From positions 1 through 37,964 of the forward strand of contig JAMCVT010000165.1 of the NCBI GenBank assembly GCA_023475565.1: DNA of 37,964 nt, in the 5' to 3' direction. This DNA comes from Actinomycetota bacterium. GTDB lineage: Bacteria; Bacillota; Desulfotomaculia; Desulfotomaculales; Desulfocucumaceae. The notes beneath the pieces were generated by a model that saw only the letters and a program-made list of their open reading frames with translations, did not search any database and was not told the DNA's origin. Below, one piece after another: positions 11,319 to 37,773 of the stretch. Position numbers and translations under genes: made by a program. Position 1 is the first letter of the stretch, and every line of letters begins with the position of its first letter.

Positions 11319-11493
11319 CCATCCCGATCGGGAACACTCCTCCGTCCCCAAAGCCATACCGATCGGGGACATTCCTCCGACCCCAAATTCCGGAATTGGG
11401 AATTGGGAATTGGGAGAGAGCAAAAGCCATCCCGATCGGGGACATTCCTCAGACCCTCAAAGCCCATCTCTAAAGTGAGGTGTGTCCCCATTC
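11319..11493 (-). repeat. Dispersed intergenic repeat, inverted copy (three units)
   Basis: Three degenerate ~35-bp units at about 11319-11352, 11354-11387 and 11428-11462 share CCGATCGGGGACATTCCTC. A short tandem GGAATTG/GGGAATT run (about 11390-11415) lies between units two and three, and a GTGTGTCCCCATTC segment lies at the end. The same sequences appear in the opposite orientation at 13199-13350 and 37837-37964. No transposase is present nearby, so this looks like a REP/MITE-type element. Confidence 0.8.
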
Positions 11494-14331: not shown

Positions 14332-14356
14332 TAAAATTACCTCCATCTTGAGAGGC

Positions 14357-14388
14357 GAGAAGTGAGAGGTTCTCACCTCTTACTTCTC
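14357..14388. repeat. GAGAAGTGAGAGG-type inverted repeat between glmU and prs
   Basis: Arms 14357-14370 and 14375-14388 pair with one mismatch. The arm sequence recurs in the riboswitch stem at 27961-28054. The hairpin would form in the glmU-prs mRNA just before the prs ribosome binding site. Confidence 0.7.
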
Positions 14389-14393
14389 ATTTC

Positions 14394-15767
14394 TCATTTT
14401 TCGCGAGACATTTTTTTGCGGGACCAGTTAGGAATATTTTTCTGCACACCCCTGGCCACACCCAGGGCATCGTCGGGCACATCCTTGGTGATGGTCGACC
14501 CGGCGCCTGTAATAGCTCCCCTGCCCACCCTCACCGGGGCCACCAGATTGGTGTTGCTGCCAATAAAAGCGTTGTCTTCAACAACGGTAGCCCACTTTTT
14601 CTCACCGTCATAGTTGCAGGTAATGGTTCCGGCCCCCACATTTACCTTTTCCCCAATTTCTGCGTCCCCTACGTAGCTTAAGTGGGGCACCTTGGTACCC
14701 CGCCCTATTTTAACCTTTTTGAGCTCCACAAAATCCCCCACTTTGACCTGGCCGTCCAGAACACACCCGGGCCTTATGTAGGAGTATGGCCCGATGGCGG
14801 AATCGTTTCCTATATCACTGTCCTCTATTACCGACTGCCTTACCGTGACGTTATCCCCTATCCTTGCCGATATAACCTGGGAAAAGGGGCCGATGGCGCA
14901 GCCCTCCCCTATCACGGTACCTCCCTGTATTACTGTGCCGGGATAAATAACCGTGTCCCGTCCTATTTTCACACCCGTATCTATATAGACCGACGAGGGG
15001 TCCACCATGGTCACCCCGGCCAGCATTAATTCAGCGTTAATCCTTTGGCCCATGGCCTCCCGGGCCAGAGCCAGCTGGGAGCGGTCATTGACACCCATTA
15101 TTTCCACCGGGTCAGCCCCGGAAACTGCGGCCACCCTTTTACCCTGCCCCTTATACAGACCTATTAAATCCGGGAGGTAGTACTCTCCCTGGGCATTGTC
15201 CGGCTTTAGAAGCGCCAGGGACTGAAAAAGCCCTTCGGCCCTGAAGCAGTATATCCCTGTATTTATTTCCTTTGCCTGCAGTTCTTCAGGACAAGCGTCC
15301 TTTTGTTCTACAATTTTTAACAACCTTCCATCTCCGTCCCTGATAATCCTCCCGTAGCCGGAAGGATTGTCCAGTTGGGCCGTCAGTACGGTAGCACACG
15401 CACCGCTTTCCCGGTGCACCGCTGTCATTTTTTTAAGGCTCTGCGCTGAAACAAGGGGAGTATCCCCGCAGAGCACCAGTATATCCCCGTCAAAGCCGCC
15501 GAGGGACGTCGCAGCCTGATGAAGGGCGTGGGCAGTGCCCAGCTGATCATGCTGAAAAACAATCTCCACCCGGCCATCCATGGCCCCGGCCACCTGGTCG
15601 CCGCCAAAGCCCACGACCACGATAATATTTTCAGAGCCGGCCTCCCGTGCCGCATTCAGCACATGGCTGACCATGGGAATCCCGCAAACACCGTGCAGCA
15701 CCTTGGGCAAGTCGGATTTCATTCTAGTCCCCTTGCCTGCGGCAAGGATTACAGCAGCCAGCGGCAT
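14394..15767 (-). CDS. glmU: Bifunctional N-acetylglucosamine-1-P uridyltransferase / glucosamine-1-P acetyltransferase GlmU
   Basis: GlmU makes UDP-GlcNAc, the precursor of peptidoglycan. The 457-aa protein has the N-terminal uridyltransferase (about 1-230; LAAGKGTRMKSDLPKVLH, VLCGDTPLV) and the C-terminal left-handed beta-helix acetyltransferase (about 250-457; repeated hexapeptides, YIRPG, GAGTITCNYDG with the acetyl-CoA-site Asn-Tyr-Asp). The ATG at 15767 follows AGGAG by 7 bases; a start at 15791 adds eight atypical residues. It lies upstream of prs and downstream of spoVG, the conserved order. Confidence 0.97.
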   Translation of the reverse strand: MPLAAVILAAGKGTRMKSDLPKVLHGVCGIPMVSHVLNAAREAGSENIIVVVGFGGDQVAGAMDGRVEIVFQHDQLGTAHALHQAATSLGGFDGDILVLCGDTPLVSAQSLKKMTAVHRESGACATVLTAQLDNPSGYGRIIRDGDGRLLKIVEQKDACPEELQAKEINTGIYCFRAEGLFQSLALLKPDNAQGEYYLPDLIGLYKGQGKRVAAVSGADPVEIMGVNDRSQLALAREAMGQRINAELMLAGVTMVDPSSVYIDTGVKIGRDTVIYPGTVIQGGTVIGEGCAIGPFSQVISARIGDNVTVRQSVIEDSDIGNDSAIGPYSYIRPGCVLDGQVKVGDFVELKKVKIGRGTKVPHLSYVGDAEIGEKVNVGAGTITCNYDGEKKWATVVEDNAFIGSNTNLVAPVRVGRGAITGAGSTITKDVPDDALGVARGVQKNIPNWSRKKMSREK

Positions 15768-26205: not shown

Positions 26206-27891
26206 TCAGCCGATAAACATCTGCACGAACATCTTACCGTAAGGACCACCGTCAACCACGCCAATACCTACCTCTTTGAAACTGCTGTTCAAAATGTTGG
26301 CCCGGTGGCCAGATGAGTTCATTAAATTGGTGTGTGCCGTGTCCACCGAAGGGGCCCCTGCCAGATTCTCTCCGGCAGTCCTGTAGCTGATGCCGAACTG
26401 ACGCATCATATCAAAGGGGCTTCCGTATGTGGGAGAGGTATGACTGAAATAATTCTTGTCAATCATGTCCTTCGCCTTGAGCCTGGCCACCCCGGTAAGC
26501 TTCAGGTTGGCAGTGAGCGGGGCCAGCCCGTTCTTGGCCCTCTCTGAGTTAACCTTATTCAACATCTTCTGCTCATCCGCTGAAAGCCCTGCAGTATTGC
26601 CCGTGCCCGGCTGGGTGGGCGGGGCTGTCGGAGGCTGGGCGGGCTGGCTTGCCGGAGGCTGGGCGGTTCCCCCCGAAGGTGGCTGGGACACCGATCCGCC
26701 GTCGGTAAACATCTCAACAAAATATTTGTAGTTTCCCTTGTCCACTATTCCTATGCCGACCAGTTTGTAATCGGAACTGAGTATATTGGCCCGGTTGCCG
26801 GAGGAGTTCATCAGGGCGGTGTGAGCCCTGGCCGCTGTATAGGTGGCCGCCAGGTTCTCTCCGGCTTTTTCAAAGCTCACCCCGTAGCTGTGCAGCATGT
26901 CCCGGAATGAGCCGTAGACCGGTGAGGTATGGGAGAAATAATTGTTTTCGATAAAATCCCTGGCCTTAAGCCTGGCCACCTGGAAGAGTTTGCTGTCGGC
27001 CTTAAGTTTGGGCAGGCCTGCTTTTACCCTTTCCTGATTAATCAGGTTGACCAGAGTCAGCTCGTCAGCCGAAAGCCCTGAGCTGCTACCAGGCTGCACG
27101 GGAGGTGTAGTTGGAGTAGTAGGCTGTGGCTGCTGCTGCCCCGAGCCACCGGGTATGGTTCCCTTCTGTCCCCCGGTAAACATCTGCACGCAGTACCTGT
27201 ACCCGCCGGACACCACAATGCCTATGCCCACCCGGTCGTAGTTTTTATTAAGTATGTTGGCCCGGTGTCCCGGTGATTCCATCAGTGCCTTGTGGGCGCT
27301 GCTGACAGAGACCGCCATGGCCAGATTTTCCCCGGCGTAAGAATAACTGATGCCGAATTTCTTCATCATATCAAAGGGACTTCCATAGGTGGGGGAATTA
27401 TGGTCAAAATACCGGTTGTCCACCATGTCCTGGGCTTTGAGCCGGGCCAGCTTGACCAGGGCGGGATCGGAACTCAGTGATCCTGCGCCGTTTGACGCCC
27501 TTTCCTGGTTAACCAGTCCAAACATTTGCTGTTCTTCGGAAGACAGGGTTCCGGTATCAATGCCCAGAACCGGGCAGTCCGGCTTAACCGCCGCGGCAGC
27601 CTTGTTTTGAGTGGAAGCCGCCTGTCCCGGCGGTGTCGTTAAGCCCCCCATATTTTGGATGTATCCCGGAGGAACTTTTTGTCCGTCTTTCAGGTCTTTT
27701 ATAGCAGAGAGATTTACTTGCGGTAAAGCTGACTGGAGTCCGGCGGCCCTTTCATCAAAGGACCCGGGATGGTTTAACTGTGAAGCCGGGCACGGCTGTA
27801 CCCCCTCCTGTGCGGCAAAGGCTGCTCCCGCCAGGCAAAACGCCAGCAGAAACACCATGAAACCGGTAGCCAGGATTCTTCTGGTACTCAT
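26206..27891 (-). CDS. Secreted protein with three CAP/SCP (YkwD-type) domains
   Basis: The 561-aa protein has a clear signal peptide (MSTRRILATGFMVFLLAFCL, cleavage near AFA-AQ), a 90-residue N-terminal region and three CAP domains (about 120-240, 270-395 and 435-561). Pro/Thr/Gln-rich linkers separate them. Each CAP unit repeats NQERxxxGLxxL, ARLKAxDMIDxxYFxHxSPxYGS, YxxAGENLA, HxxLMxSxGHRANIL and VGIGxVxxGxYxxFVQMF. The His/Glu CAP cavity residues are present. Such YkwD-like proteins are secreted, often spore- or wall-associated, with unclear activity. AGGAG lies 6 bases before the ATG. A cyclic-di-AMP riboswitch occupies the leader, tying expression to wall and osmotic signalling. Confidence 0.93.
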   Translation of the reverse strand: MSTRRILATGFMVFLLAFCLAGAAFAAQEGVQPCPASQLNHPGSFDERAAGLQSALPQVNLSAIKDLKDGQKVPPGYIQNMGGLTTPPGQAASTQNKAAAAVKPDCPVLGIDTGTLSSEEQQMFGLVNQERASNGAGSLSSDPALVKLARLKAQDMVDNRYFDHNSPTYGSPFDMMKKFGISYSYAGENLAMAVSVSSAHKALMESPGHRANILNKNYDRVGIGIVVSGGYRYCVQMFTGGQKGTIPGGSGQQQPQPTTPTTPPVQPGSSSGLSADELTLVNLINQERVKAGLPKLKADSKLFQVARLKARDFIENNYFSHTSPVYGSFRDMLHSYGVSFEKAGENLAATYTAARAHTALMNSSGNRANILSSDYKLVGIGIVDKGNYKYFVEMFTDGGSVSQPPSGGTAQPPASQPAQPPTAPPTQPGTGNTAGLSADEQKMLNKVNSERAKNGLAPLTANLKLTGVARLKAKDMIDKNYFSHTSPTYGSPFDMMRQFGISYRTAGENLAGAPSVDTAHTNLMNSSGHRANILNSSFKEVGIGVVDGGPYGKMFVQMFIG

Positions 27892-27911
27892 TCAGTGCTC
27901 CTTTCTTTTTT

Positions 27912-28128
27912 AGCCTCCGGAGTTAGCTGACGGGTTCGGTAAAAGATAACCCTACCCTGGTGAGAAGTGAGAGGCGGGAAGTTGGAGGTGGGATTCTTGT
28001 GGGAATTTGCTTCATCGAAAATTCCTTCTTAATCCCACTTCTCACTTCTCACATCGCACTTTCAATAGGGATTCACCCCCAAATTGGTTCCTCCGTACCC
28101 ATTTATTAAGTTTAATGGGATTCGGCAT
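27912..28128 (-). promoter_or_regulatory. ydaO/yuaA cyclic-di-AMP riboswitch
   Basis: The leader of the CAP-domain gene shows the conserved blocks of the ydaO motif in order on the minus strand: GCCGAATCC, GGGTACGGAGGAACCA, GGGGGTGAATC, then after a long variable stem TACCGAACCCGTCAGCTAAC and CTCCGGAGGC. These are the recognisable cores of this riboswitch class, which senses c-di-AMP and usually turns off wall-remodelling or osmolyte genes. A short stem-forming region and TTTTTT-like stretch follow the 3' block before the ribosome binding site. The variable stem is built from a GTGAGAAGTGAGA repeat. Confidence 0.88.
27961..28054. repeat. GTGAGAAGTGAGA repeat arms inside the riboswitch
   Basis: The arms around 27960-27980 and 28033-28054 are complementary, with a few mismatches, and form the variable stem of the riboswitch. 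The same sequence forms the hairpin between glmU and prs. Confidence 0.7.
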
Positions 28129-28334
28129 TATTGGTACAACATTCTCCCTTCCCATACAGGGTGTGTCTATAACGCCAGGGCCTGTACAAAAAGGAAATAT
28201 GTGTATCAACTTTACCAGAAAAAAAAGGGTCTCTCAACGACAAAATTCGACCCTGATAATCCCGCTGAACAGCCTGAAGGTATAAAACCAGACACCAGGG
28301 CATGGTTTCGCAAAATTGCTATAGCCTGGTATAA

Positions 28335-28733
28335 TCAACCATCCCTGGGAACATACATGACAGCCCCCAACCCCTCGGTAAGGGCCATACACTCAAGGCT
28401 GCCGCCCTCCTCAAAAAAACTGGTAATTATAAACATCCCTTTTTTAAAGGAACGCTGGAACCTTTTCATGGTCAGCTCATCAAAATTATGCATAAGTTCC
28501 AGAGTATTCCCGGATCCTTTAATCACCATCATATACCTGCCGTCGGACTGCCGGGAAAACATTACCCTGTAAGGCTTCTCCGTGAATTTCACCAGACCCT
28601 CAATGGCGCTGACATATTGCTTTACCGCCGACATGGCGTCAGTTCTTGTCTTCATCCTGGGACCTACAGCAGGAATATTCTCTCCCAGGAGGGCCATAGC
28701 AATTTCACCGGCCTTGAAAACCGGTTCTCCCAT
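28335..28733 (-). CDS. Hypothetical protein (132 aa)
   Basis: The ATG at 28733 follows GGGAGG by 7 bases and gives a 132-aa soluble alpha/beta-looking protein (GEPVFKAGEIAMALLGENI, YRVMFSRQSDGRYMMVIKGSG, FKKGMFIITSFFEEGGSLEC). The frame is open to 28808, but that part translates the terminator of the upstream gene. I recognise no family. It lies between the trypsin-like protease and the CAP-domain gene, behind a terminator, so it likely has its own promoter. Confidence 0.65.
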   Translation of the reverse strand: MGEPVFKAGEIAMALLGENIPAVGPRMKTRTDAMSAVKQYVSAIEGLVKFTEKPYRVMFSRQSDGRYMMVIKGSGNTLELMHNFDELTMKRFQRSFKKGMFIITSFFEEGGSLECMALTEGLGAVMYVPRDG

Positions 28734-28765
28734 ATACGATCCTCCCGCCCGGCATAAATTCCGCA

Positions 28766-28798
28766 AAAGACCCCCCCGGAAATTGGTAAGGGGGTCTT
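28766..28798 (-). terminator. Terminator after the trypsin-like protease gene
   Basis: On the minus strand AAGACCCCC and GGGGGGGTCTT pair around a TTACCAATTTCC loop region, followed by TTTGC, 7 bases past the stop. Confidence 0.75.
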
Positions 28799-28804
28799 CA
28801 TAAG

Positions 28805-29815
28805 TCATGCCAGTTCCACACCCAATTTTGCAAATACATTCTCCAGCCGGTTAAAGACAGTGTATTTTTCAGAACCTGCAAACAACAGCCCCACTGCTTT
28901 CATTTCCTGATCCATTATCAGGGAGCCGCTGTCTCCGCCCTTTGACACCATATCCGAAACCACCTGGCCGGAGAAATTACCCGTTTCTCCGGCATCGTTC
29001 ATATCCACCTGCAGGGATACGTCTATAGCCACAATGTCCCCGGAGGTCAGCCCGGAGCTGCGACCGCTCTTCATAACCTTCTTTTTGACGCCGGCCGTGG
29101 ACATCCCCCGGGGCACTCCCATATCAATAATTTCGGGTGATATAATATCCCGGGAGACAGGCCGGGCCAGGGCTGCGTCAATTATATTATCGCCCCGGTT
29201 AACCCTCATAAAGCGAATATCATAGTCAGGCCTGATCAGGTGCACCAGCTTGCTCCCCAGTTGAGCCGCACCGGCGGCAACGGGGCAGTCGGTCTGTTTC
29301 TCCTGCTTTAAAATGGGCCAAAACCGCAGGAGTTCTGCAATTTTGTCATCTACGGCGCCCCCGTCGTAGGATCCCGGCTGCAGGATGGGATCCCCTATTT
29401 TGGCCCGGCCGTCCTTTCCGTCAGTGCCATTGGCCAGTATATGGTTATTGCTCAATATCAGCGGCTCACCGGTCTTCAAATCCCTGACCACAGCCCCGAA
29501 TGTGCCGGCGGTTATCTTGTAGTGCCCTATGCTGGACCCCGGTCTGGCCGGCCTGCTTTTATCGGTCCTTACGTCGAGAAGCCTTACCCTGCCTATTTCT
29601 ATAACGTCCGTGGGAACACCGTCAATTTCTTGGGGTATTATTTCTTTCCTGGAAAGGCTGGATTTAACCATCTTTTTCTCAACAAATACAATAACAGAGG
29701 GATGACTGGTCCTTTCCAGCCCCACCTGCTTCATTCCGGCCCCAACGCCGATAACATTCTTTTTGTGCAAAAAGACTTTTCTCACTTTATTTAATGCATT
29801 AAGACATTTTTCCAC
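28805..29815 (-). CDS. Trypsin-like serine protease, cytosolic or spore-associated
   Basis: The protein is about 336 aa from a GTG at 29815, 9 bases after AGGAGG; a TTG at 29854 would give 349 aa. A trypsin fold is indicated by LILSNNHILAN with the catalytic His and KGGDSGSLIMDQ with the catalytic Ser (near residue 295). VDDKIAEL between them may carry the Asp. It starts with a short domain (MEKCLNALNKVRKVFLHKKNVIGVGAGMKQV) known from Firmicute Nal1-like proteases. No signal peptide is visible. It was the gene directly downstream of yabG before the element entered, which puts two proteases side by side. Confidence 0.82.
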   Translation of the reverse strand: MEKCLNALNKVRKVFLHKKNVIGVGAGMKQVGLERTSHPSVIVFVEKKMVKSSLSRKEIIPQEIDGVPTDVIEIGRVRLLDVRTDKSRPARPGSSIGHYKITAGTFGAVVRDLKTGEPLILSNNHILANGTDGKDGRAKIGDPILQPGSYDGGAVDDKIAELLRFWPILKQEKQTDCPVAAGAAQLGSKLVHLIRPDYDIRFMRVNRGDNIIDAALARPVSRDIISPEIIDMGVPRGMSTAGVKKKVMKSGRSSGLTSGDIVAIDVSLQVDMNDAGETGNFSGQVVSDMVSKGGDSGSLIMDQEMKAVGLLFAGSEKYTVFNRLENVFAKLGVELA

Positions 29816-29917
29816 CCGGAACCCCCTCCTTGCGCCTCCTGACATAGTATTCAAAAAGGGGGGAAAGGGTTCCGCAGGGTTTTACCGTCCTGCCGGGCAG
29901 GTAAGGGACTTTACCTG

Positions 29918-29968
29918 TCAATACCGGGATTTCGGTACTCCCAGCCTGTATTTACCGCGGGTTTCAAC
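29918..29968 (-). pseudogene. yabG: Displaced 3' end of yabG (last 14 codons and stop)
   Basis: From the 6-bp core at 29963-29968 to the stop at 29918 the minus strand reads in frame as VETRGKYRLGVPKSRY. Joined to the yabG 5' part at the core it gives GIGGVETRGKYRLGVPKSRY, which matches the GGIETRGxxRxGxP ending of YabG proteins (B. subtilis YabG, from memory). In the present arrangement these codons instead form the C-terminus of recombinase copy 1. The fragment is not decayed: frame, stop and length fit exactly. Confidence 0.9.
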
Positions 29969-31468
29969 ACGCAGGGAGCAATCCGTAAAACCTCCGAAAA
30001 GGTACCGTACGGTAACTATGGGCGCCGGCCTGTCCCCCAAGGATGACAGGCCCACCGTGATGCCCTCCACCAGACCCCTGATCAGCTCCCTTTTCTCTGC
30101 CGGGCTGGCCCACTGCAGCCTTTTACGGACTGCCTCCGGCCGGTCCGAGAATTGGCCGGGCATCCCCGACCGCCGGACCAACAACGACTTGCGATTCTTT
30201 ACAGACTCTATTTCCAGCCCAATAATATCCAACTGAACCTTTACATCCTCCCCGGAAATAATGCCCTGCCTGTATAGGCCTATTATTCTTTTGCGCTCAG
30301 CCTCTTTGTCGTGCATAATTTTCTCCAGCCGGGCCAGCTGGTCTTCCAGAGGCAGCTTTCCCCACCGTGCCGGAAGGGCTTCCTCAATTTTTTCAAGTGC
30401 CGGCCCTGCCGTTAAAACAAAACTGCACACATCTTCCCATATCATTTCTTCAATTATGTCGGCCCTTACCGATTTGGCCGGACACTTCCCGGCGCTTCCC
30501 TTAAGAGAGGTGTTTTTTGAACATCTGTAATAGCAAAGCCTCCCCTCCCTGCCGGAGCCGTCACCGTAGAATCTGCCGCCGCACAGCCCGCACCTGACCA
30601 GTCCCTTCAGAATATACTCCCTACGGCAGTTTCTCCCGGCACACTGGCTGTTTCTCCTTCGGGCCTCCCCGGCAGCCTCCCAGTCTCCGGCGGTAACAAC
30701 AGGAGGACACTCAATGCCAACCACCTTTTTCCCTCCCCTCCTGCCGTAAAGGAATGTCCCCCGGTACACCGGGTTGGACAATATGCTCCACACCCTGCTG
30801 GCATGCCACCCCCTGGCCGCCCCCGGGCCTTTTTTACCCGATCCGGCCGGGGAGGAAACACCCATGGCGTTAATATAGTGGGCAATGGAGGCGGTGCTCA
30901 TTTCCCCCCCGGTGTACAGATAAAAAATCATCCTCACTATGCCCGCCTCTTTTTCATTTACTACCAGCCGTTTACCTTCCAGCGAATAGCCGTAGGGGGG
31001 CGGGCCTCCGGGCCAGCGCCCTTCTCTCAGCGCCCTCTCCCTGCCCACCCGCATCCTCTCGGCGATGGTCTCCCTTTCAATCTCGGCAATGCCTCCCAGA
31101 GTGGTCATGAAGAATTTGCCACTGGGGGTCGAGGTGTCAAAATTCTCGGTCATGCTTTTTAAAGCCACCTCTGATGCACTGAGTCTCTGGTGAGTTTTGA
31201 GAATATCCAGTGTGGCCCGGGCCAGTCTGTCCAGGCGGTAAACATATACAACCCTGAAAAAGCCTTTTTCAGCGTCCCGCAAAAGCCTAGACCCGGAAGG
31301 CCTTTGTTCAACAGGTATAGAGCCGCTGACCCCGTCGTCCAGGTAAAAATCATGAATATCAAGGCCGTGCAGCTGGCAGAACCTGTGGGCAAAGTCCACC
31401 TGGTTTTCAATGGTCCTGGCATCAGCCTGGTCCTCGGTGGAAACCCTGCAATACACCGCCACCTTCAA
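29918..31468 (-). CDS. Large serine recombinase, copy 1 (with yabG-derived tail)
   Basis: The 516-aa recombinase has an N-terminal resolvase domain (VAVYCRVSTEDQ, catalytic Ser10; YRLDRLARATLD; GGIAEIERETIAERM), a recombinase domain (about 165-270), a zinc ribbon (about 290-345, VRCGLCGG ... YYRC ... GKC) and a Leu/Arg/Glu-rich coiled coil (about 375-440). This is the architecture of SpoIVCA, SprA and other large serine integrases. The TTG at 31468 follows GGGGAGGG by 6 bases and starts right at the resolvase fold; ATGs at 31507 and 31546 lie further upstream. Its last 14 codons after the att core are the displaced yabG 3' end. Confidence 0.93.
   Translation of the reverse strand: MKVAVYCRVSTEDQADARTIENQVDFAHRFCQLHGLDIHDFYLDDGVSGSIPVEQRPSGSRLLRDAEKGFFRVVYVYRLDRLARATLDILKTHQRLSASEVALKSMTENFDTSTPSGKFFMTTLGGIAEIERETIAERMRVGRERALREGRWPGGPPPYGYSLEGKRLVVNEKEAGIVRMIFYLYTGGEMSTASIAHYINAMGVSSPAGSGKKGPGAARGWHASRVWSILSNPVYRGTFLYGRRGGKKVVGIECPPVVTAGDWEAAGEARRRNSQCAGRNCRREYILKGLVRCGLCGGRFYGDGSGREGRLCYYRCSKNTSLKGSAGKCPAKSVRADIIEEMIWEDVCSFVLTAGPALEKIEEALPARWGKLPLEDQLARLEKIMHDKEAERKRIIGLYRQGIISGEDVKVQLDIIGLEIESVKNRKSLLVRRSGMPGQFSDRPEAVRKRLQWASPAEKRELIRGLVEGITVGLSSLGDRPAPIVTVRYLFGGFTDCSLRVETRGKYRLGVPKSRY
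29963..29968. repeat. Attachment core, outer left junction
   Basis: TTCAAC (GTTGAA in the coding sense, Val-Glu). Left of it is yabG 3' sequence; right of it is the element (recombinase 3' end). The bases directly flanking the core differ among the three junctions, so the shared core is exactly 6 bp. Confidence 0.85.
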
Positions 31469-31532
31469 AAACAACCCTCCCCGTATTAAATAGGGCCCGC
31501 CCCGCATAAACATAGCTGGAGGTGCCTTAAAA

Positions 31533-31724
31533 ATGATCGTGCGCAAAGTATTCCGGCCGGATGACAGCGGCCGGGAACGGATAGAGGCCGCCCTGAAAAA
31601 ATTCTTTTACCCGGAAAGCCGTGATGTGGATGCGGAGCATACTGAAAACAGACTTCCGGGTGATCCTTCTGCCAGCAGCAAAAAACACCCGGAACCGGAT
31701 CCTGACCCCGAAAGACAGCGCTGA
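31533..31724 (+). CDS. 63-aa ORF divergent from the recombinase, copy 1
   Basis: The ATG is preceded by GGAGG at about 10 bases. The product is highly charged: a short helix (SGRERIEAALKKFF), then a disordered Glu/Asp/Pro-rich tail. No family is recognised. Its place, 64 bases from the recombinase start and transcribed away from it, and its size make it a candidate recombination directionality factor (SprB of SPbeta is 58 aa), but there is no sequence evidence for that. Confidence 0.5.
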   Translation: MIVRKVFRPDDSGRERIEAALKKFFYPESRDVDAEHTENRLPGDPSASSKKHPEPDPDPERQR

Positions 31725-31765
31725 CTTACGCCCCGGCCCACCTACTACTGATTTTATTTCCAGGC

Positions 31766-31802
31766 AAAAAAAAAAGAACAGCCGTAACAAATACGGCTGT
31801 TC
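31766..31802 (-). terminator. Strong terminator in the element, copy 1
   Basis: On the minus strand GAACAGCCGTA-TTTG-TACGGCTGTTC type stem is followed by ten T. It ends a minus-strand transcript coming through LysR or the non-coding stretch behind it. Confidence 0.9.
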
Positions 31803-31888
31803 AGACCACCTTTTAATAAGTGGTATTCTTCTTTGACCACGTCCTCAGAGTAAGTCATCTGAAAAGACGCTTATACTGAAATTCTTAT

Positions 31889-32043
31889 CGGTCGGAATAC
31901 AGAATTCAGAATGTTTTAGGCAGTCCTTATAAGTAAATAAGACCGATTAGCTGGGCTTATAAGTATCTGTGTCTGTGGCTTAAAAGGACCAGAATTTACA
32001 TCCTCCTTGGCGGCCCGGGTGTCTGAATTCTGGCTTCCGACCG
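31889..32043. repeat. Long inverted repeat in the non-coding part of the element, copy 1
   Basis: Arms 31889-31909 and 32023-32043 are complementary at 19 of 21 positions (CGGTCGGAA..CAGAATTCAG). The 113 bases between them hold two CTTATAAGTA boxes about 30 bases apart. Nothing in the 340 bases between the small ORF and LysR codes for a protein. It could fold as a long RNA hairpin in the LysR 3' region or be a binding site on DNA. Confidence 0.75.
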
Positions 32044-32066
32044 GAGAGCAGTGCCCGTAAGATATT

Positions 32067-32990
32067 TCAAACCCCCTGCCTTACCAGACTGTCGGCCAGT
32101 ATCTGGGGCAGATCTCCCCCTATTATCAGCTTGGTAAACTCGTCCGAGGCCCTGGACTGGAATTTGTCCTTCAGCTTGATCAGGAAAAACCAGCGAGGTA
32201 TTTCTAGACCCTTGATTCTCAGAGGCTTTAAGCTCCCCAGGGACAGCTCCTTGCGGAGGCTCCACTTTGACAGTATGGAAATGCCCAGTCCCGACTCCAC
32301 GGCCTCTTTTATAGCCTGGGTGCTGCCCAGGGTGATTACCCTATCGGGGGTGAAGCCGGACTTTTCAAAAAACTCCTCCATGGCCAGCCTGGTGCCTGAT
32401 CCCTCTTCCCTTATAATAAAAACACACTCTTTAAGATCATCCCTGTCCACCCGTGGCTTTTTGGCCAGGGGGTGAAGAGTAGGGGCCACCAGTAACATTT
32501 CATCCTTTAAAAAAGTTTTTATTTCCAGCTGGGCATCCTCAACAACACCTTCCACCAGCCCCACGTCTATGGTTCCCTCCCGGGTAAATTCCCGGATAAT
32601 CTCGGTGTTACCCACCAGCACTGAATACTCCACATCGGGATACTTCCTGGTAAAAGTGGCCAGCAGCCTGGGCAGAACATACTCCCCTATAGTAAGGCTG
32701 GCGCCTATGGTTAGTTTTCCAGTGACCATGTCCACCAGGTCAGCCACTGATTTTTTGGCCACCCTGTGCAGTCTTAAAATCTCCTGGGCATATTTGTACA
32801 GTACCATTCCAGCCTGGGTTAGTTCAACCTTCTTGCTGGACCTCTCAAAGAGCTTGGCTCCGTAATAGTCCTCAAGGGCGTGTATGTGCTGGCTTATGGC
32901 AGGTTGGGTCATGTTCAGATATTCTCCGGCCCTGGAGAAATTTTTTTTATCAGCCACAGTGATAAAGATATCCAGCTGATTGTCAAGCAT
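32067..32990 (-). CDS. LysR-family transcription regulator, copy 1
   Basis: The 307-aa protein has an N-terminal winged helix (about 1-60; MLDNQLDIFITVADKKNFSR, MTQPAISQHIHALEDYYGAKLFERSSKKVELT) and a periplasmic-binding-like effector domain (about 90-300) of the CysL/CysB-like type. The ATG at 32990 follows GGAGG by 6 bases; an open frame to 33047 lacks a site. It is carried between the structured region and the csp gene. It may control the element's own recombinase or a host function; the effector is unknown. Confidence 0.93.
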   Translation of the reverse strand: MLDNQLDIFITVADKKNFSRAGEYLNMTQPAISQHIHALEDYYGAKLFERSSKKVELTQAGMVLYKYAQEILRLHRVAKKSVADLVDMVTGKLTIGASLTIGEYVLPRLLATFTRKYPDVEYSVLVGNTEIIREFTREGTIDVGLVEGVVEDAQLEIKTFLKDEMLLVAPTLHPLAKKPRVDRDDLKECVFIIREEGSGTRLAMEEFFEKSGFTPDRVITLGSTQAIKEAVESGLGISILSKWSLRKELSLGSLKPLRIKGLEIPRWFFLIKLKDKFQSRASDEFTKLIIGGDLPQILADSLVRQGV

Positions 32991-33114
32991 TGTCATCCTC
33001 CATATCGCCACGGCAAAATTATTTATCCAAGCGATAATATAACCCAACCGGCATTTTTACAACCAATTTCCTCCCAATGGTCGTCAGACTGGGCCAACCG
33101 GGCAAAAAAGGAGA

Positions 33115-33148
33115 AGAAAAAAACTCCGGCCTGTTACCGGAGTTTTTG
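33115..33148 (-). terminator. Terminator after csp, copy 1
   Basis: On the minus strand ACTCCGGTAACAGGCCGGAGT is followed by TTTTTTTC; the stop codon of csp overlaps its beginning. Confidence 0.9.
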
Positions 33149-33149
33149 G

Positions 33150-33347
33150 TTATAGTTTATGTACATTATCTGCCTGGGGGCCGCGTTTTCCGGAAACAAC
33201 CTCGAACTCTACCGACTGTCCTTCATCAAGCGATTTGTAACCCTCTTCCATTATGGCGGAATAATGGACAAACACATCGGCGCCATCCTCGGACTCAATA
33301 AATCCATAACCTTTGCCCGGATTAAACCATTTTACTTTTCCTTGCAT
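33150..33347 (-). CDS. Cold-shock protein, copy 1
   Basis: The 65-aa single cold-shock domain carries both RNP motifs (KGYGFIE and DVFVHYSAI) and the [12 protein letters not shown] start. Such proteins melt RNA structure and affect mRNA stability and transcription. AGGAGG lies 5 bases before the ATG. It is an unusual cargo for an integrase element. It lies about 100 bases inside the element end, so any transcript leaving yabG or recombinase copy 2 would run into it. Confidence 0.97.
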
Positions 33348-33404
33348 GTTTTCCTCCTGATAATAAATTACAATTCAGTATTATTTTAACCTTAGCACTA
33401 TTTT

Positions 33405-34955
33405 TTAATACCCCGGACAAAATTTTTCCGCGTGCTGCTTCCCGGGTGCTTCAACACGCAGGGAGCAATCCGTAAAACCTCCGAAAAGGTACCGTACGGT
33501 AACTATGGGCGCCGGCCTGTCCCCCAAGGATGACAGGCCCACCGTGATGCCCTCCACCAGACCCCTGATCAGCTCCCTTTTCTCTGCCGGGCTGGCCCAC
33601 TGCAGCCTTTTACGGACTGCCTCCGGCCGGTCCGAGAATTGGCCGGGCATCCCCGACCGCCGGACCAACAACGACTTGCGATTCTTTACAGACTCTATTT
33701 CCAGCCCAATAATATCCAACTGAACCTTTACATCCTCCCCGGAAATAATGCCCTGCCTGTATAGGCCTATTATTCTTTTGCGCTCAGCCTCTTTGTCGTG
33801 CATAATTTTCTCCAGCCGGGCCAGCTGGTCTTCCAGAGGCAGCTTTCCCCACCGTGCCGGAAGGGCTTCCTCAATTTTTTCAAGTGCCGGCCCTGCCGTT
33901 AAAACAAAACTGCACACATCTTCCCATATCATTTCTTCAATTATGTCGGCCCTTACCGATTTGGCCGGACACTTCCCGGCGCTTCCCTTAAGAGAGGTGT
34001 TTTTTGAACATCTGTAATAGCAAAGCCTCCCCTCCCTGCCGGAGCCGTCACCGTAGAATCTGCCGCCGCACAGCCCGCACCTGACCAGTCCCTTCAGAAT
34101 ATACTCCCTACGGCAGTTTCTCCCGGCACACTGGCTGTTTCTCCTTCGGGCCTCCCCGGCAGCCTCCCAGTCTCCGGCGGTAACAACAGGAGGACACTCA
34201 ATGCCAACCACCTTTTTCCCTCCCCTCCTGCCGTAAAGGAATGTCCCCCGGTACACCGGGTTGGACAATATGCTCCACACCCTGCTGGCATGCCACCCCC
34301 TGGCCGCCCCCGGGCCTTTTTTACCCGATCCGGCCGGGGAGGAAACACCCATGGCGTTAATATAGTGGGCAATGGAGGCGGTGCTCATTTCCCCCCCGGT
34401 GTACAGATAAAAAATCATCCTCACTATGCCCGCCTCTTTTTCATTTACTACCAGCCGTTTACCTTCCAGCGAATAGCCGTAGGGGGGCGGGCCTCCGGGC
34501 CAGCGCCCTTCTCTCAGCGCCCTCTCCCTGCCCACCCGCATCCTCTCGGCGATGGTCTCCCTTTCAATCTCGGCAATGCCTCCCAGAGTGGTCATGAAGA
34601 ATTTGCCACTGGGGGTCGAGGTGTCAAAATTCTCGGTCATGCTTTTTAAAGCCACCTCTGATGCACTGAGTCTCTGGTGAGTTTTGAGAATATCCAGTGT
34701 GGCCCGGGCCAGTCTGTCCAGGCGGTAAACATATACAACCCTGAAAAAGCCTTTTTCAGCGTCCCGCAAAAGCCTAGACCCGGAAGGCCTTTGTTCAACA
34801 GGTATAGAGCCGCTGACCCCGTCGTCCAGGTAAAAATCATGAATATCAAGGCCGTGCAGCTGGCAGAACCTGTGGGCAAAGTCCACCTGGTTTTCAATGG
34901 TCCTGGCATCAGCCTGGTCCTCGGTGGAAACCCTGCAATACACCGCCACCTTCAA
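33405..34955 (-). CDS. Large serine recombinase, copy 2 (native element tail)
   Basis: The sequence is identical to copy 1 up to the att core, with the same resolvase domain, recombinase domain, zinc ribbon and coiled coil. The last 14 residues are APGKQHAEKFCPGY instead of the yabG-derived tail. Because the sequence after the core comes from the next element end, this copy shows how the gene should end in the excised circle. The start is again the TTG after GGGGAGGG, giving 516 aa. Confidence 0.93.
   Translation of the reverse strand: MKVAVYCRVSTEDQADARTIENQVDFAHRFCQLHGLDIHDFYLDDGVSGSIPVEQRPSGSRLLRDAEKGFFRVVYVYRLDRLARATLDILKTHQRLSASEVALKSMTENFDTSTPSGKFFMTTLGGIAEIERETIAERMRVGRERALREGRWPGGPPPYGYSLEGKRLVVNEKEAGIVRMIFYLYTGGEMSTASIAHYINAMGVSSPAGSGKKGPGAARGWHASRVWSILSNPVYRGTFLYGRRGGKKVVGIECPPVVTAGDWEAAGEARRRNSQCAGRNCRREYILKGLVRCGLCGGRFYGDGSGREGRLCYYRCSKNTSLKGSAGKCPAKSVRADIIEEMIWEDVCSFVLTAGPALEKIEEALPARWGKLPLEDQLARLEKIMHDKEAERKRIIGLYRQGIISGEDVKVQLDIIGLEIESVKNRKSLLVRRSGMPGQFSDRPEAVRKRLQWASPAEKRELIRGLVEGITVGLSSLGDRPAPIVTVRYLFGGFTDCSLRVEAPGKQHAEKFCPGY
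33450..33455. repeat. Attachment core, middle junction (attP-like)
   Basis: TTCAAC with element sequence on both sides. This junction has the sequence predicted for the attP of a circular element. The arms show an imperfect dyad (TGCTTCCC on one side, GGGAGCA on the other), as expected for serine integrase sites. Confidence 0.85.
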
Positions 34956-35019
34956 AAACAACCCTCCCCGTATTAAATAGGGCCCGCCCCGCATAAACAT
35001 AGCTGGAGGTGCCTTAAAA

Positions 35020-35211
35020 ATGATCGTGCGCAAAGTATTCCGGCCGGATGACAGCGGCCGGGAACGGATAGAGGCCGCCCTGAAAAAATTCTTTTACCCG
35101 GAAAGCCGTGATGTGGATGCGGAGCATACTGAAAACAGACTTCCGGGTGATCCTTCTGCCAGCAGCAAAAAACACCCGGAACCGGATCCTGACCCCGAAA
35201 GACAGCGCTGA
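35020..35211 (+). CDS. 63-aa ORF divergent from the recombinase, copy 2
   Basis: This ORF is identical to 31533-31724, including the GGAGG ribosome binding site. It is a charged small protein of unknown function and a candidate directionality factor by position only. Confidence 0.5.
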   Translation: MIVRKVFRPDDSGRERIEAALKKFFYPESRDVDAEHTENRLPGDPSASSKKHPEPDPDPERQR

Positions 35212-35252
35212 CTTACGCCCCGGCCCACCTACTACTGATTTTATTTCCAGGC

Positions 35253-35289
35253 AAAAAAAAAAGAACAGCCGTAACAAATACGGCTGTTC
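35253..35289 (-). terminator. Strong terminator in the element, copy 2
   Basis: It is identical to the hairpin at 31766-31802, with ten T following on the minus strand. Confidence 0.9.
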
Positions 35290-35375
35290 AGACCACCTTT
35301 TAATAAGTGGTATTCTTCTTTGACCACGTCCTCAGAGTAAGTCATCTGAAAAGACGCTTATACTGAAATTCTTAT

Positions 35376-35530
35376 CGGTCGGAATACAGAATTCAGAATG
35401 TTTTAGGCAGTCCTTATAAGTAAATAAGACCGATTAGCTGGGCTTATAAGTATCTGTGTCTGTGGCTTAAAAGGACCAGAATTTACATCCTCCTTGGCGG
35501 CCCGGGTGTCTGAATTCTGGCTTCCGACCG
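35376..35530. repeat. Long inverted repeat in the non-coding part of the element, copy 2
   Basis: Arms at 35376-35396 and 35510-35530 are identical to those of copy 1. The roughly 340 bases between the 63-aa ORF and LysR again hold no gene. Confidence 0.75.
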
Positions 35531-35553
35531 GAGAGCAGTGCCCGTAAGATATT

Positions 35554-36477
35554 TCAAACCCCCTGCCTTACCAGACTGTCGGCCAGTATCTGGGGCAGAT
35601 CTCCCCCTATTATCAGCTTGGTAAACTCGTCCGAGGCCCTGGACTGGAATTTGTCCTTCAGCTTGATCAGGAAAAACCAGCGAGGTATTTCTAGACCCTT
35701 GATTCTCAGAGGCTTTAAGCTCCCCAGGGACAGCTCCTTGCGGAGGCTCCACTTTGACAGTATGGAAATGCCCAGTCCCGACTCCACGGCCTCTTTTATA
35801 GCCTGGGTGCTGCCCAGGGTGATTACCCTATCGGGGGTGAAGCCGGACTTTTCAAAAAACTCCTCCATGGCCAGCCTGGTGCCTGATCCCTCTTCCCTTA
35901 TAATAAAAACACACTCTTTAAGATCATCCCTGTCCACCCGTGGCTTTTTGGCCAGGGGGTGAAGAGTAGGGGCCACCAGTAACATTTCATCCTTTAAAAA
36001 AGTTTTTATTTCCAGCTGGGCATCCTCAACAACACCTTCCACCAGCCCCACGTCTATGGTTCCCTCCCGGGTAAATTCCCGGATAATCTCGGTGTTACCC
36101 ACCAGCACTGAATACTCCACATCGGGATACTTCCTGGTAAAAGTGGCCAGCAGCCTGGGCAGAACATACTCCCCTATAGTAAGGCTGGCGCCTATGGTTA
36201 GTTTTCCAGTGACCATGTCCACCAGGTCAGCCACTGATTTTTTGGCCACCCTGTGCAGTCTTAAAATCTCCTGGGCATATTTGTACAGTACCATTCCAGC
36301 CTGGGTTAGTTCAACCTTCTTGCTGGACCTCTCAAAGAGCTTGGCTCCGTAATAGTCCTCAAGGGCGTGTATGTGCTGGCTTATGGCAGGTTGGGTCATG
36401 TTCAGATATTCTCCGGCCCTGGAGAAATTTTTTTTATCAGCCACAGTGATAAAGATATCCAGCTGATTGTCAAGCAT
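35554..36477 (-). CDS. LysR-family transcription regulator, copy 2
   Basis: The 307-aa protein is identical to that at 32067-32990, with the same GGAGG-ATG start. It is an N-terminal helix-turn-helix joined to a CysB/CysL-like effector domain. Two copies would double the dosage of any element-borne regulation. Confidence 0.93.
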   Translation of the reverse strand: MLDNQLDIFITVADKKNFSRAGEYLNMTQPAISQHIHALEDYYGAKLFERSSKKVELTQAGMVLYKYAQEILRLHRVAKKSVADLVDMVTGKLTIGASLTIGEYVLPRLLATFTRKYPDVEYSVLVGNTEIIREFTREGTIDVGLVEGVVEDAQLEIKTFLKDEMLLVAPTLHPLAKKPRVDRDDLKECVFIIREEGSGTRLAMEEFFEKSGFTPDRVITLGSTQAIKEAVESGLGISILSKWSLRKELSLGSLKPLRIKGLEIPRWFFLIKLKDKFQSRASDEFTKLIIGGDLPQILADSLVRQGV

Positions 36478-36601
36478 TGTCATCCTCCATATCGCCACGG
36501 CAAAATTATTTATCCAAGCGATAATATAACCCAACCGGCATTTTTACAACCAATTTCCTCCCAATGGTCGTCAGACTGGGCCAACCGGGCAAAAAAGGAG
36601 A

Positions 36602-36635
36602 AGAAAAAAACTCCGGCCTGTTACCGGAGTTTTTG
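36602..36635 (-). terminator. Terminator after csp, copy 2
   Basis: It is identical to the hairpin and T-run at 33115-33148. Confidence 0.9.
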
Positions 36636-36636
36636 G

Positions 36637-36834
36637 TTATAGTTTATGTACATTATCTGCCTGGGGGCCGCGTTTTCCGGAAACAACCTCGAACTCTACC
36701 GACTGTCCTTCATCAAGCGATTTGTAACCCTCTTCCATTATGGCGGAATAATGGACAAACACATCGGCGCCATCCTCGGACTCAATAAATCCATAACCTT
36801 TGCCCGGATTAAACCATTTTACTTTTCCTTGCAT
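36637..36834 (-). CDS. Cold-shock protein, copy 2
   Basis: The 65-aa cold-shock domain is identical to that at 33150-33347. It lies 57 bases downstream of the present yabG stop codon and in the same direction. Before excision, sigma-K transcription of yabG could therefore also produce this protein unless it is stopped in between; no hairpin is visible in the gap. Confidence 0.97.
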
Positions 36835-36891
36835 GTTTTCCTCCTGATAATAAATTACAATTCAGTATTATTTTAACCTTAGCACTATTTT

Positions 36892-37773
36892 TTAATACCC
36901 CGGACAAAATTTTTCCGCGTGCTGCTTCCCGGGTGCTTCAACGCCTCCAATCCCGTCAAAACCGGTAACCGTGCTGGCAATAACGTCTTTTAAGGGAATA
37001 GGGTCATATATGGAGGTGTAGGCCACCTTTTCCATTACAAATACGGGGTCGTATGCATTTATCAAAACCCTCCGGGGTGAGCTGGCAAAATTGGAGCCCG
37101 CCGCCAGCAGCGCCTCGTAGTGCGACTGGCAGGCCCCGGCAAAAATAACCAGGTCATCCCGGCTTTTTTCATAAATTCTGGCAGCCTTTACAGCATTTAT
37201 AAAAAACTGTGAGTTATGGTACTTTTTTATATTCCTGTAATCCTCCTCCTTGGCGCCCTTAATAAGCCCGTCGTGCCCGGTCAGCACCAGCATATCCGGG
37301 CGGTGCTCCATAAGGATGTCAATCACCTTCTCGGCCTGCTTTTCCTCGTCTATATGGTACCCGTTGCACTCTATGTTCAGCTGTTTGTAACTGGTCATAC
37401 ACATATCCAGGTATTCCTTGTCCCCGTCGATATGAACAAGGGTTCCGGGCAGGTCAAAGCTTTCTATTTCGTCCATATTGCTTTTGGTGGCCCGTCCCAG
37501 GGTCTCTTTCCGGTATTCTTCCCTTCTCACGAATATGTGTTTCATCTTTTCCATGTTTTTAAGCTGGCAGCTGTGCCAGTACTGGTTTAGCTCAACCTGT
37601 TCCACCTTTAACAGGTCGTCTACCGGGGCTGTCGCCTCCAGCCGCATATCCAGCCCCTTCAGCCTGGCGTATTGTTTCCCGTCATCCCCTGTACATAAGT
37701 TCATTATTTTAAAAAAAATATCACCACCATAGGATTTCCTGGCCACAATATCGCCAATTTTCAGGTTGACCAA
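36892..37773 (-). CDS. yabG: Sporulation protease YabG, interrupted: native 279 residues with an element-encoded tail
   Basis: YabG is the mother-cell cysteine-type protease that trims coat proteins such as SafA and SpoIVA late in sporulation. The body matches the family: IGDIVARKSYGGDIFFKI, GTLVHIDGDKEYLDMC, DMLVLTGHDG, HNSQFFINAVKAAR, VIFAGACQSHYEALLAAGSNFASSPRRVLINAYDPVFV (the GACQSHYE and ASSPxR blocks are the hallmark). The TTG at 37773 follows AAGGAGG by 8 bases. After the core GTTGAA the frame enters the element and ends with 14 foreign residues, so the product keeps its length (293 aa) but loses the conserved TRGxxRxGxP tail. The native tail is at 29918-29962. Confidence 0.93.
   Translation of the reverse strand: MVNLKIGDIVARKSYGGDIFFKIMNLCTGDDGKQYARLKGLDMRLEATAPVDDLLKVEQVELNQYWHSCQLKNMEKMKHIFVRREEYRKETLGRATKSNMDEIESFDLPGTLVHIDGDKEYLDMCMTSYKQLNIECNGYHIDEEKQAEKVIDILMEHRPDMLVLTGHDGLIKGAKEEDYRNIKKYHNSQFFINAVKAARIYEKSRDDLVIFAGACQSHYEALLAAGSNFASSPRRVLINAYDPVFVMEKVAYTSIYDPIPLKDVIASTVTGFDGIGGVEAPGKQHAEKFCPGY
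36937..36942. repeat. Attachment core, outer right junction
   Basis: TTCAAC, with the element end (csp side) to its left and the yabG body to its right. It lies exactly 3,487 bases from the middle core. Confidence 0.85.

Follow-up and report, generated by a model that had tools for sequence, protein, structure and literature searches.

The palindromic elements of Rickettsia are known to sit in tmRNA and in RNase P RNA (review: PMC2229807), and in Streptococcus pneumoniae a BOX element separates two T-boxes (PMC3049150). Geobacter metallireducens carries families of heptanucleotide repeats, which are read there as regulator sites (PMC2700814). As for c-di-AMP riboswitches, the variable stem of the crystallised ydaO RNA is a GAAA-capped hairpin (PMC5393176), a translational c-di-AMP switch has been reported for nlpC of Corynebacterium glutamicum (PMC9960051), and an aminomutase gene under a c-di-AMP riboswitch is already known (PMC9337991). 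The open-licence literature, outside of which most subscription journals lie, yielded no report of recurrent colonisation of riboswitch or ribozyme variable stems by dispersed palindromes; its closest precedents for repeats inside riboswitch aptamers are the BOX element between T-boxes and the Rickettsia elements in tmRNA and RNase P RNA.

The window analysed here is a whole stretch of 37,964 nt. It holds a c-di-AMP riboswitch. The variable stem of this riboswitch takes no part in ligand binding and has probably been colonised by one copy of a palindromic, MITE-like repeat that is dispersed in the genome. The features needed for the argument are the following.

27896..28137, minus strand: complete c-di-AMP riboswitch aptamer (RF00379; cmscan 75.5 bits, E 6e-16)
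27960..28064, minus strand: palindromic heptad-arm element of 105 nt, filling the variable stem (BLAST to genome copies, covariation in 15 copies, fold z -5.5)
28064-28033, 28025-28002 and 27991-27960, minus strand: 5' arm, inner hairpin and 3' arm of the element
27941..27946, minus strand: UCUUUU loop, 5' half of a predicted pseudoknot, pairing with AAAAGA at 27909-27904
27898..27909, minus strand: AAAAGA pseudoknot tail (27909-27904) abutting the Shine-Dalgarno sequence AAAGGAG (27904-27898), from the sequence and 13 orthologous leaders
28209..28237, minus strand: TTGAGA-17-TAAAGT, a possible sigma-A promoter ahead of the aptamer, from a consensus scan only
26206..27891, minus strand: secreted protein of 561 aa with three YkwD/CAP domains (TIGR02909, PF00188 three times)
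about 14349..14397, no strand assigned: hairpin between glmU and prs, built of the same heptad arms but without the core (arm matches; genes checked)

The presence of a ydaO motif on the minus strand, claimed in an earlier note on this DNA, was confirmed by an RF00379 match at 28137..27896 that covers the model from 1 to 134, with a score far above the gathering cut-off of 38 bits; the span originally given, 27912-28128, is the core of this match. In the cmscan alignment the 105-nt insertion sits in the variable stem, which is closed around it by CCC (28070-28068) and GGG (27957-27955). Judged by the model match, and the filling of this stem apart, the riboswitch is an ordinary RF00379 member. 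Dispensability of the variable stem for ligand binding is consistent with the GAAA-capped hairpin found there in the crystallised ydaO RNA (PMC5393176). The aptamer pairs are compatible with the insert as a single long hairpin (-68.7 kcal/mol constrained against -71.7 free); unconstrained folding favours an alternative fold by 3 kcal/mol, and such folding models neither the pseudoknot nor the ligand. Since the insert folds on itself, we infer that the RNA core still folds and that the insertion survives; a self-folding insert would only lengthen a stem that is already variable in length.

A 13-nt arm repeat had been proposed to form the variable stem. The repeat is there, but the unit is the 105-nt element (27960-28064), built of 7-nt repeats around an inner hairpin. 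At its 5' end, an arm of GTGAGAA-type 7-nt units is followed by a spacer and the inner hairpin (GGAATTT...AAATTCC); a second spacer then leads to the 3' arm, which is complementary to the first. When 27958-28070 was folded alone, -39.2 kcal/mol was obtained (z -5.5). Fifteen copies of the element could be aligned, the lengths flanking the inner hairpin being mostly constant, and the columns assigned as paired were paired in 94.5% of cases, compared with at most 51.5% when the partners were slid by 1-3 columns. At one position of the inner helix nine copies have U-A, four have G-C and two have A-U. The covariation score was 0.193 against 0.094 for shuffled alignments (0 of 500 shuffles as high); as the copies are related and their own alignment supplied the structure, this is support rather than proof. 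At the level of the aligned sequences, pairing is conserved between the copies.

Compared by way of working only, the element resembles those of Rickettsia in being a dispersed palindrome of about 100 nt tolerated inside structured RNA, but its arms consist of 7-nt units and it occupies a riboswitch and a self-cleaving riboswitch, at multiple sites and in more than one lineage. With the pneumococcal BOX it shares the nature of a small dispersed repeat in a riboswitch leader; BOX lies between two RNA elements, whereas the heptad element lies inside the aptamer, in one stem. Bacterial MITEs are likewise short, non-coding, provided with terminal inverted repeats and dispersed in intergenic DNA, and the likeness rests on the inverted repeats and the dispersion, the arms of the heptad element being arrays of 7-nt units. 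The G. metallireducens families are also dispersed and built of tandem 7-nt units, but their sequences are different and the available part of that report mentions no link to riboswitches (PMC2700814).

The earlier note predicted that the arm sequence would recur elsewhere in the genome, and it does: GTGAGAAGTGAGA has 6 exact occurrences in the 2.72-Mb genome compared with 0 for the reversed control, and with at most two mismatches it was found at 8 sites in the window against 0.46 expected. BLAST revealed full-length relatives in the same genome at C5:14914-15026 (82%), C140:5271-5374 (83%), C169:311-405 (79%) and C167:2510-2608 (78%), with E values down to 1e-24. There are thus at least four full copies besides that in the window, copy counts being lower bounds from BLAST and pattern searches. 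Many arm-only copies occur elsewhere in the genome, and core-less copies sit at ordinary intergenic sites. The hairpin between glmU and prs, which had been said to share the stem sequence, does have the same arms but lacks the core of the element. The family was also found in relatives of the same order. A chance likeness, in which a riboswitch stem of variable length merely happens to have similar purine/pyrimidine-rich arms, would agree with the variation of this stem in length and sequence between species, but is hardly conceivable: the genome matches extend over about 100 nt at 78-83% identity and include the non-heptad core, which refutes it, and 7-nt periodicity at the element's level was seen in just 8 of 3787 windows of 100 nt, at four places, two of which are the heptad elements. 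A further short repeat cluster, at 11331-11470, likewise has a 7-nt period; in it, units resembling CCGATCGGGGACATTCCTC surround GGAATTGGGAATTGGGAATTGGGAG.

Four c-di-AMP riboswitches were found in the genome of the window. Besides that of the CAP gene, they precede genes for an NlpC/P60 wall hydrolase, a permease and a glutamate 2,3-aminomutase (TIGR04368, 699 bits over a cut-off of 650), and two of the four, those of the CAP and aminomutase genes, hold the heptad element in the same stem. The same stem and the same orientation in both could mean that a riboswitch was duplicated with its stem carried along, in a single acquisition without colonisation, of which C13 and C11 of G002 are a possible example. 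For the two riboswitches considered here this is very improbable. Outside the stem their aptamers are only 64% identical and in the aptamer tree they fall in separate clades together with orthologues from other genomes, some of which have no insert at all. The two inserts share 80% identity with each other, less than each shares with a copy beside a tRNA or 5S rRNA gene (82% and 86%). Duplication as the source of both filled stems was therefore rejected on the aptamer tree and the element identities, and since the aptamers are diverged and each insert is nearer to a tRNA/5S copy, the two inserts came separately from the dispersed family. The idea that a dispersed repeat fills a tolerant riboswitch stem, put forward in the earlier note, is accordingly upheld by full-length genome copies, including one in another riboswitch of separate descent. 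At L038 (G000:C5), with orthologues in G001, G002, G003, G006 and G013, the gene behind the c-di-AMP riboswitch is that of glutamate 2,3-aminomutase, an enzyme of beta-glutamate osmolyte synthesis, and in other families of the order apparent ectA, otsA and glycine-betaine transporter genes, read by eye, lie behind c-di-AMP riboswitches.

The same stem was then compared in relatives, the named ones being the Peptococcaceae (Clostridia) BICA1-7 (G002; 82% protein identity) and BRH_c4b. BICA1-7 has the closest relative of the CAP riboswitch, and in both BICA1-7 and G001 the flanks align with the window through leader and gene. The stem itself holds the GTGAGAA element in the window, a GTCAGTC-type heptad hairpin with another core in BICA1-7, and a 19-nt stub in G001. 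A lag of 7 was the strongest period (z at least 2.8) in 14 longer riboswitch stems of the order, among them both the aminomutase and the CAP riboswitch stems of G013; these stems were picked for length, so their proportion gives no base rate. In G042, G050 and G058 this riboswitch stem is filled by a CACTC...GAGTG palindrome unrelated to the heptad element. The exact pattern GCACTCA...TGAGTGC is dispersed, with 13 copies in G042, 5 in G058 and 4 in G024 (controls 0); this second dispersed palindrome was observed in G042, G058, G024 and G022 (e.g. L301, L305, L306), in c-di-AMP riboswitch and glmS P1 stems. The whole CACTCA-type insert of G058 was rejected as a BLAST-dispersed family, as it matches only the two riboswitches of G058; the shorter terminal pattern is what is dispersed.

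The glmS ribozyme is a second host RNA. In G001 an element copy forms a 113-nt insertion in the P1 loop of a glmS ribozyme (97.2 bits), BICA1-7 has a full copy in glmS P1, and the window's genome has a decayed heptad tract there, while in G021, G022 and G024 glmS P1 holds the CACTCA-type palindrome. Within the genus, the element family is present at three separate structured-RNA sites, namely the CAP riboswitch, the glutamate-aminomutase riboswitch and glmS ribozyme P1. The variable stem of the c-di-AMP riboswitch and that of glmS, two different regulatory RNAs, have thus each been filled by two palindrome families that are unrelated to one another. The stem repeat was under-called at first reading, since the same stem holds other repeats in relatives and glmS P1 is colonised as well.

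Part of this pattern is inheritance, because the only full-length relative that the riboswitch insert of BICA1-7 has in its own genome sits in a second riboswitch, and the copies at tRNA sites are common to sister genomes. Inherited stems might also have been overwritten by gene conversion from dispersed copies, with no fresh insertion. The orthologous tRNA-Ser copies of G000 and G001 keep the core while both arms have changed heptad type together (GTTCGAA units on both sides in G001), and three sister genomes hold different heptads in glmS P1. We nevertheless consider such a concerted change unlikely, as the stems of the window and BICA1-7 differ in core and arms alike and some orthologues are without the insert. 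At L250 (G001:C84) and L200 (G000:C167), beside tRNA-Ser, concerted evolution of the hairpin arms is possible, the core being kept and the 7-nt unit of both arms switched together.

The copies of the dispersed family may have landed anywhere and survived, or may have been guided. Each of the five full copies found in the genome of the window is within a riboswitch or beside tRNA/5S rRNA genes. If 12% of the DNA is assumed to be non-coding and the stems to be 30-120 nt long, the chance that at least 2 of 5-90 copies hit the four riboswitch stems is about 1e-6 to 8e-3. The core follows the direction of transcription at seven RNA-associated sites that are independent of one another (two-sided sign test about 0.016). 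These biases, and the two unrelated palindrome families in the same two stems, would be expected if the element preferred hairpin stems or transcribed structured RNA, a possibility that we regard as rather unlikely. Better retention near conserved RNA genes predicts the identical pattern, so that targeting and retention fit the location and orientation bias alike; moreover, the core-less copies sit at ordinary intergenic sites, and Y1 transposases are not flanked by the element. In the flanks of 23 Y1_Tnp loci we found one heptad tract only, about 0.9 kb away, and one more match inside an open frame, and a Y1/RAYT transposase was rejected as the mobiliser. The strongest form of targeting seems doubtful: heptad elements would be actively directed to the hairpin stems of structured RNAs that are transcribed (riboswitches, ribozyme, tRNA/rRNA spacers), in the orientation of transcription and possibly through a hairpin intermediate of RNA or single-stranded DNA, and the variable stems would be true targets, emptied and refilled again and again.

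On the preferred reading, colonisation of a spare stem, variable stems would serve as safe harbours in which one insert can be gained, lost and replaced by another, and such spare stems look like places where parasitic DNA can land safely. Self-folding dispersed palindromes offer a concrete source for the length variation of peripheral stems in riboswitches and ribozymes, and such repeats can occupy a regulatory RNA without breaking it. Searches that mask repeats may miss or split such RNAs.

The gene downstream begins 4 nt past the end of the RF00379 match. The earlier note placed the riboswitch before a secreted protein with three CAP domains, and this is borne out by the 561-aa product, which has three stretches matching PF00188 above the cut-off and three matching TIGR02909 (YkwD) with 500 bits against 171. 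By these matches it is an ordinary YkwD/CAP protein. The predicted pairing between the UCUUUU terminal loop and the AAAAGA 3' tail is kept in 13 CAP-class riboswitches, in whose leaders the Shine-Dalgarno sequence directly follows the tail and the start codon comes within a few nt; in the G029 leader the pairing is preserved despite changes on both sides. As no terminator-like site was found at 27700-28800, a terminator-based expression platform was rejected. The leader is probably a translational OFF switch: c-di-AMP would stabilise the aptamer and its pseudoknot, and the latter, abutting the Shine-Dalgarno sequence, would block synthesis of the CAP protein at high c-di-AMP. The full model match, the conserved blocks, the wall or osmolyte genes downstream and the lack of a terminator are as in C. 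glutamicum nlpC and the ydaO-yuaA class; what differs from that class is that the variable stem is a dispersed repeat and that the Shine-Dalgarno sequence stands directly behind the pseudoknot tail. The genes under the four c-di-AMP riboswitches of the genome would fit control of wall and osmolytes.

An insert recruited to tune this switch, by way of stem stability, folding kinetics or protein binding, is conceivable given so strong a hairpin (-39.2 kcal/mol) within an aptamer that folds during transcription, but quite improbable, as orthologues have no insert or unrelated sequences in its place. The related genomes, with empty, filled and refilled stems, form a natural series on which the tolerance of the c-di-AMP and glmS switches to stem extension, or their tuning by it, can be followed.

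Upstream of the aptamer, 28805-29854 (minus strand) encodes a 349-aa protein with weak, sub-cut-off similarity to NAL1-type domains. Farther along, at 29963-36942, a 3.49-kb segment is repeated exactly in tandem (3493 identical bases at an offset of 3487), and with it a LysR regulator and a CcrB/XisF-like large serine recombinase are each present twice; the duplication is either very recent or an artefact of assembly.
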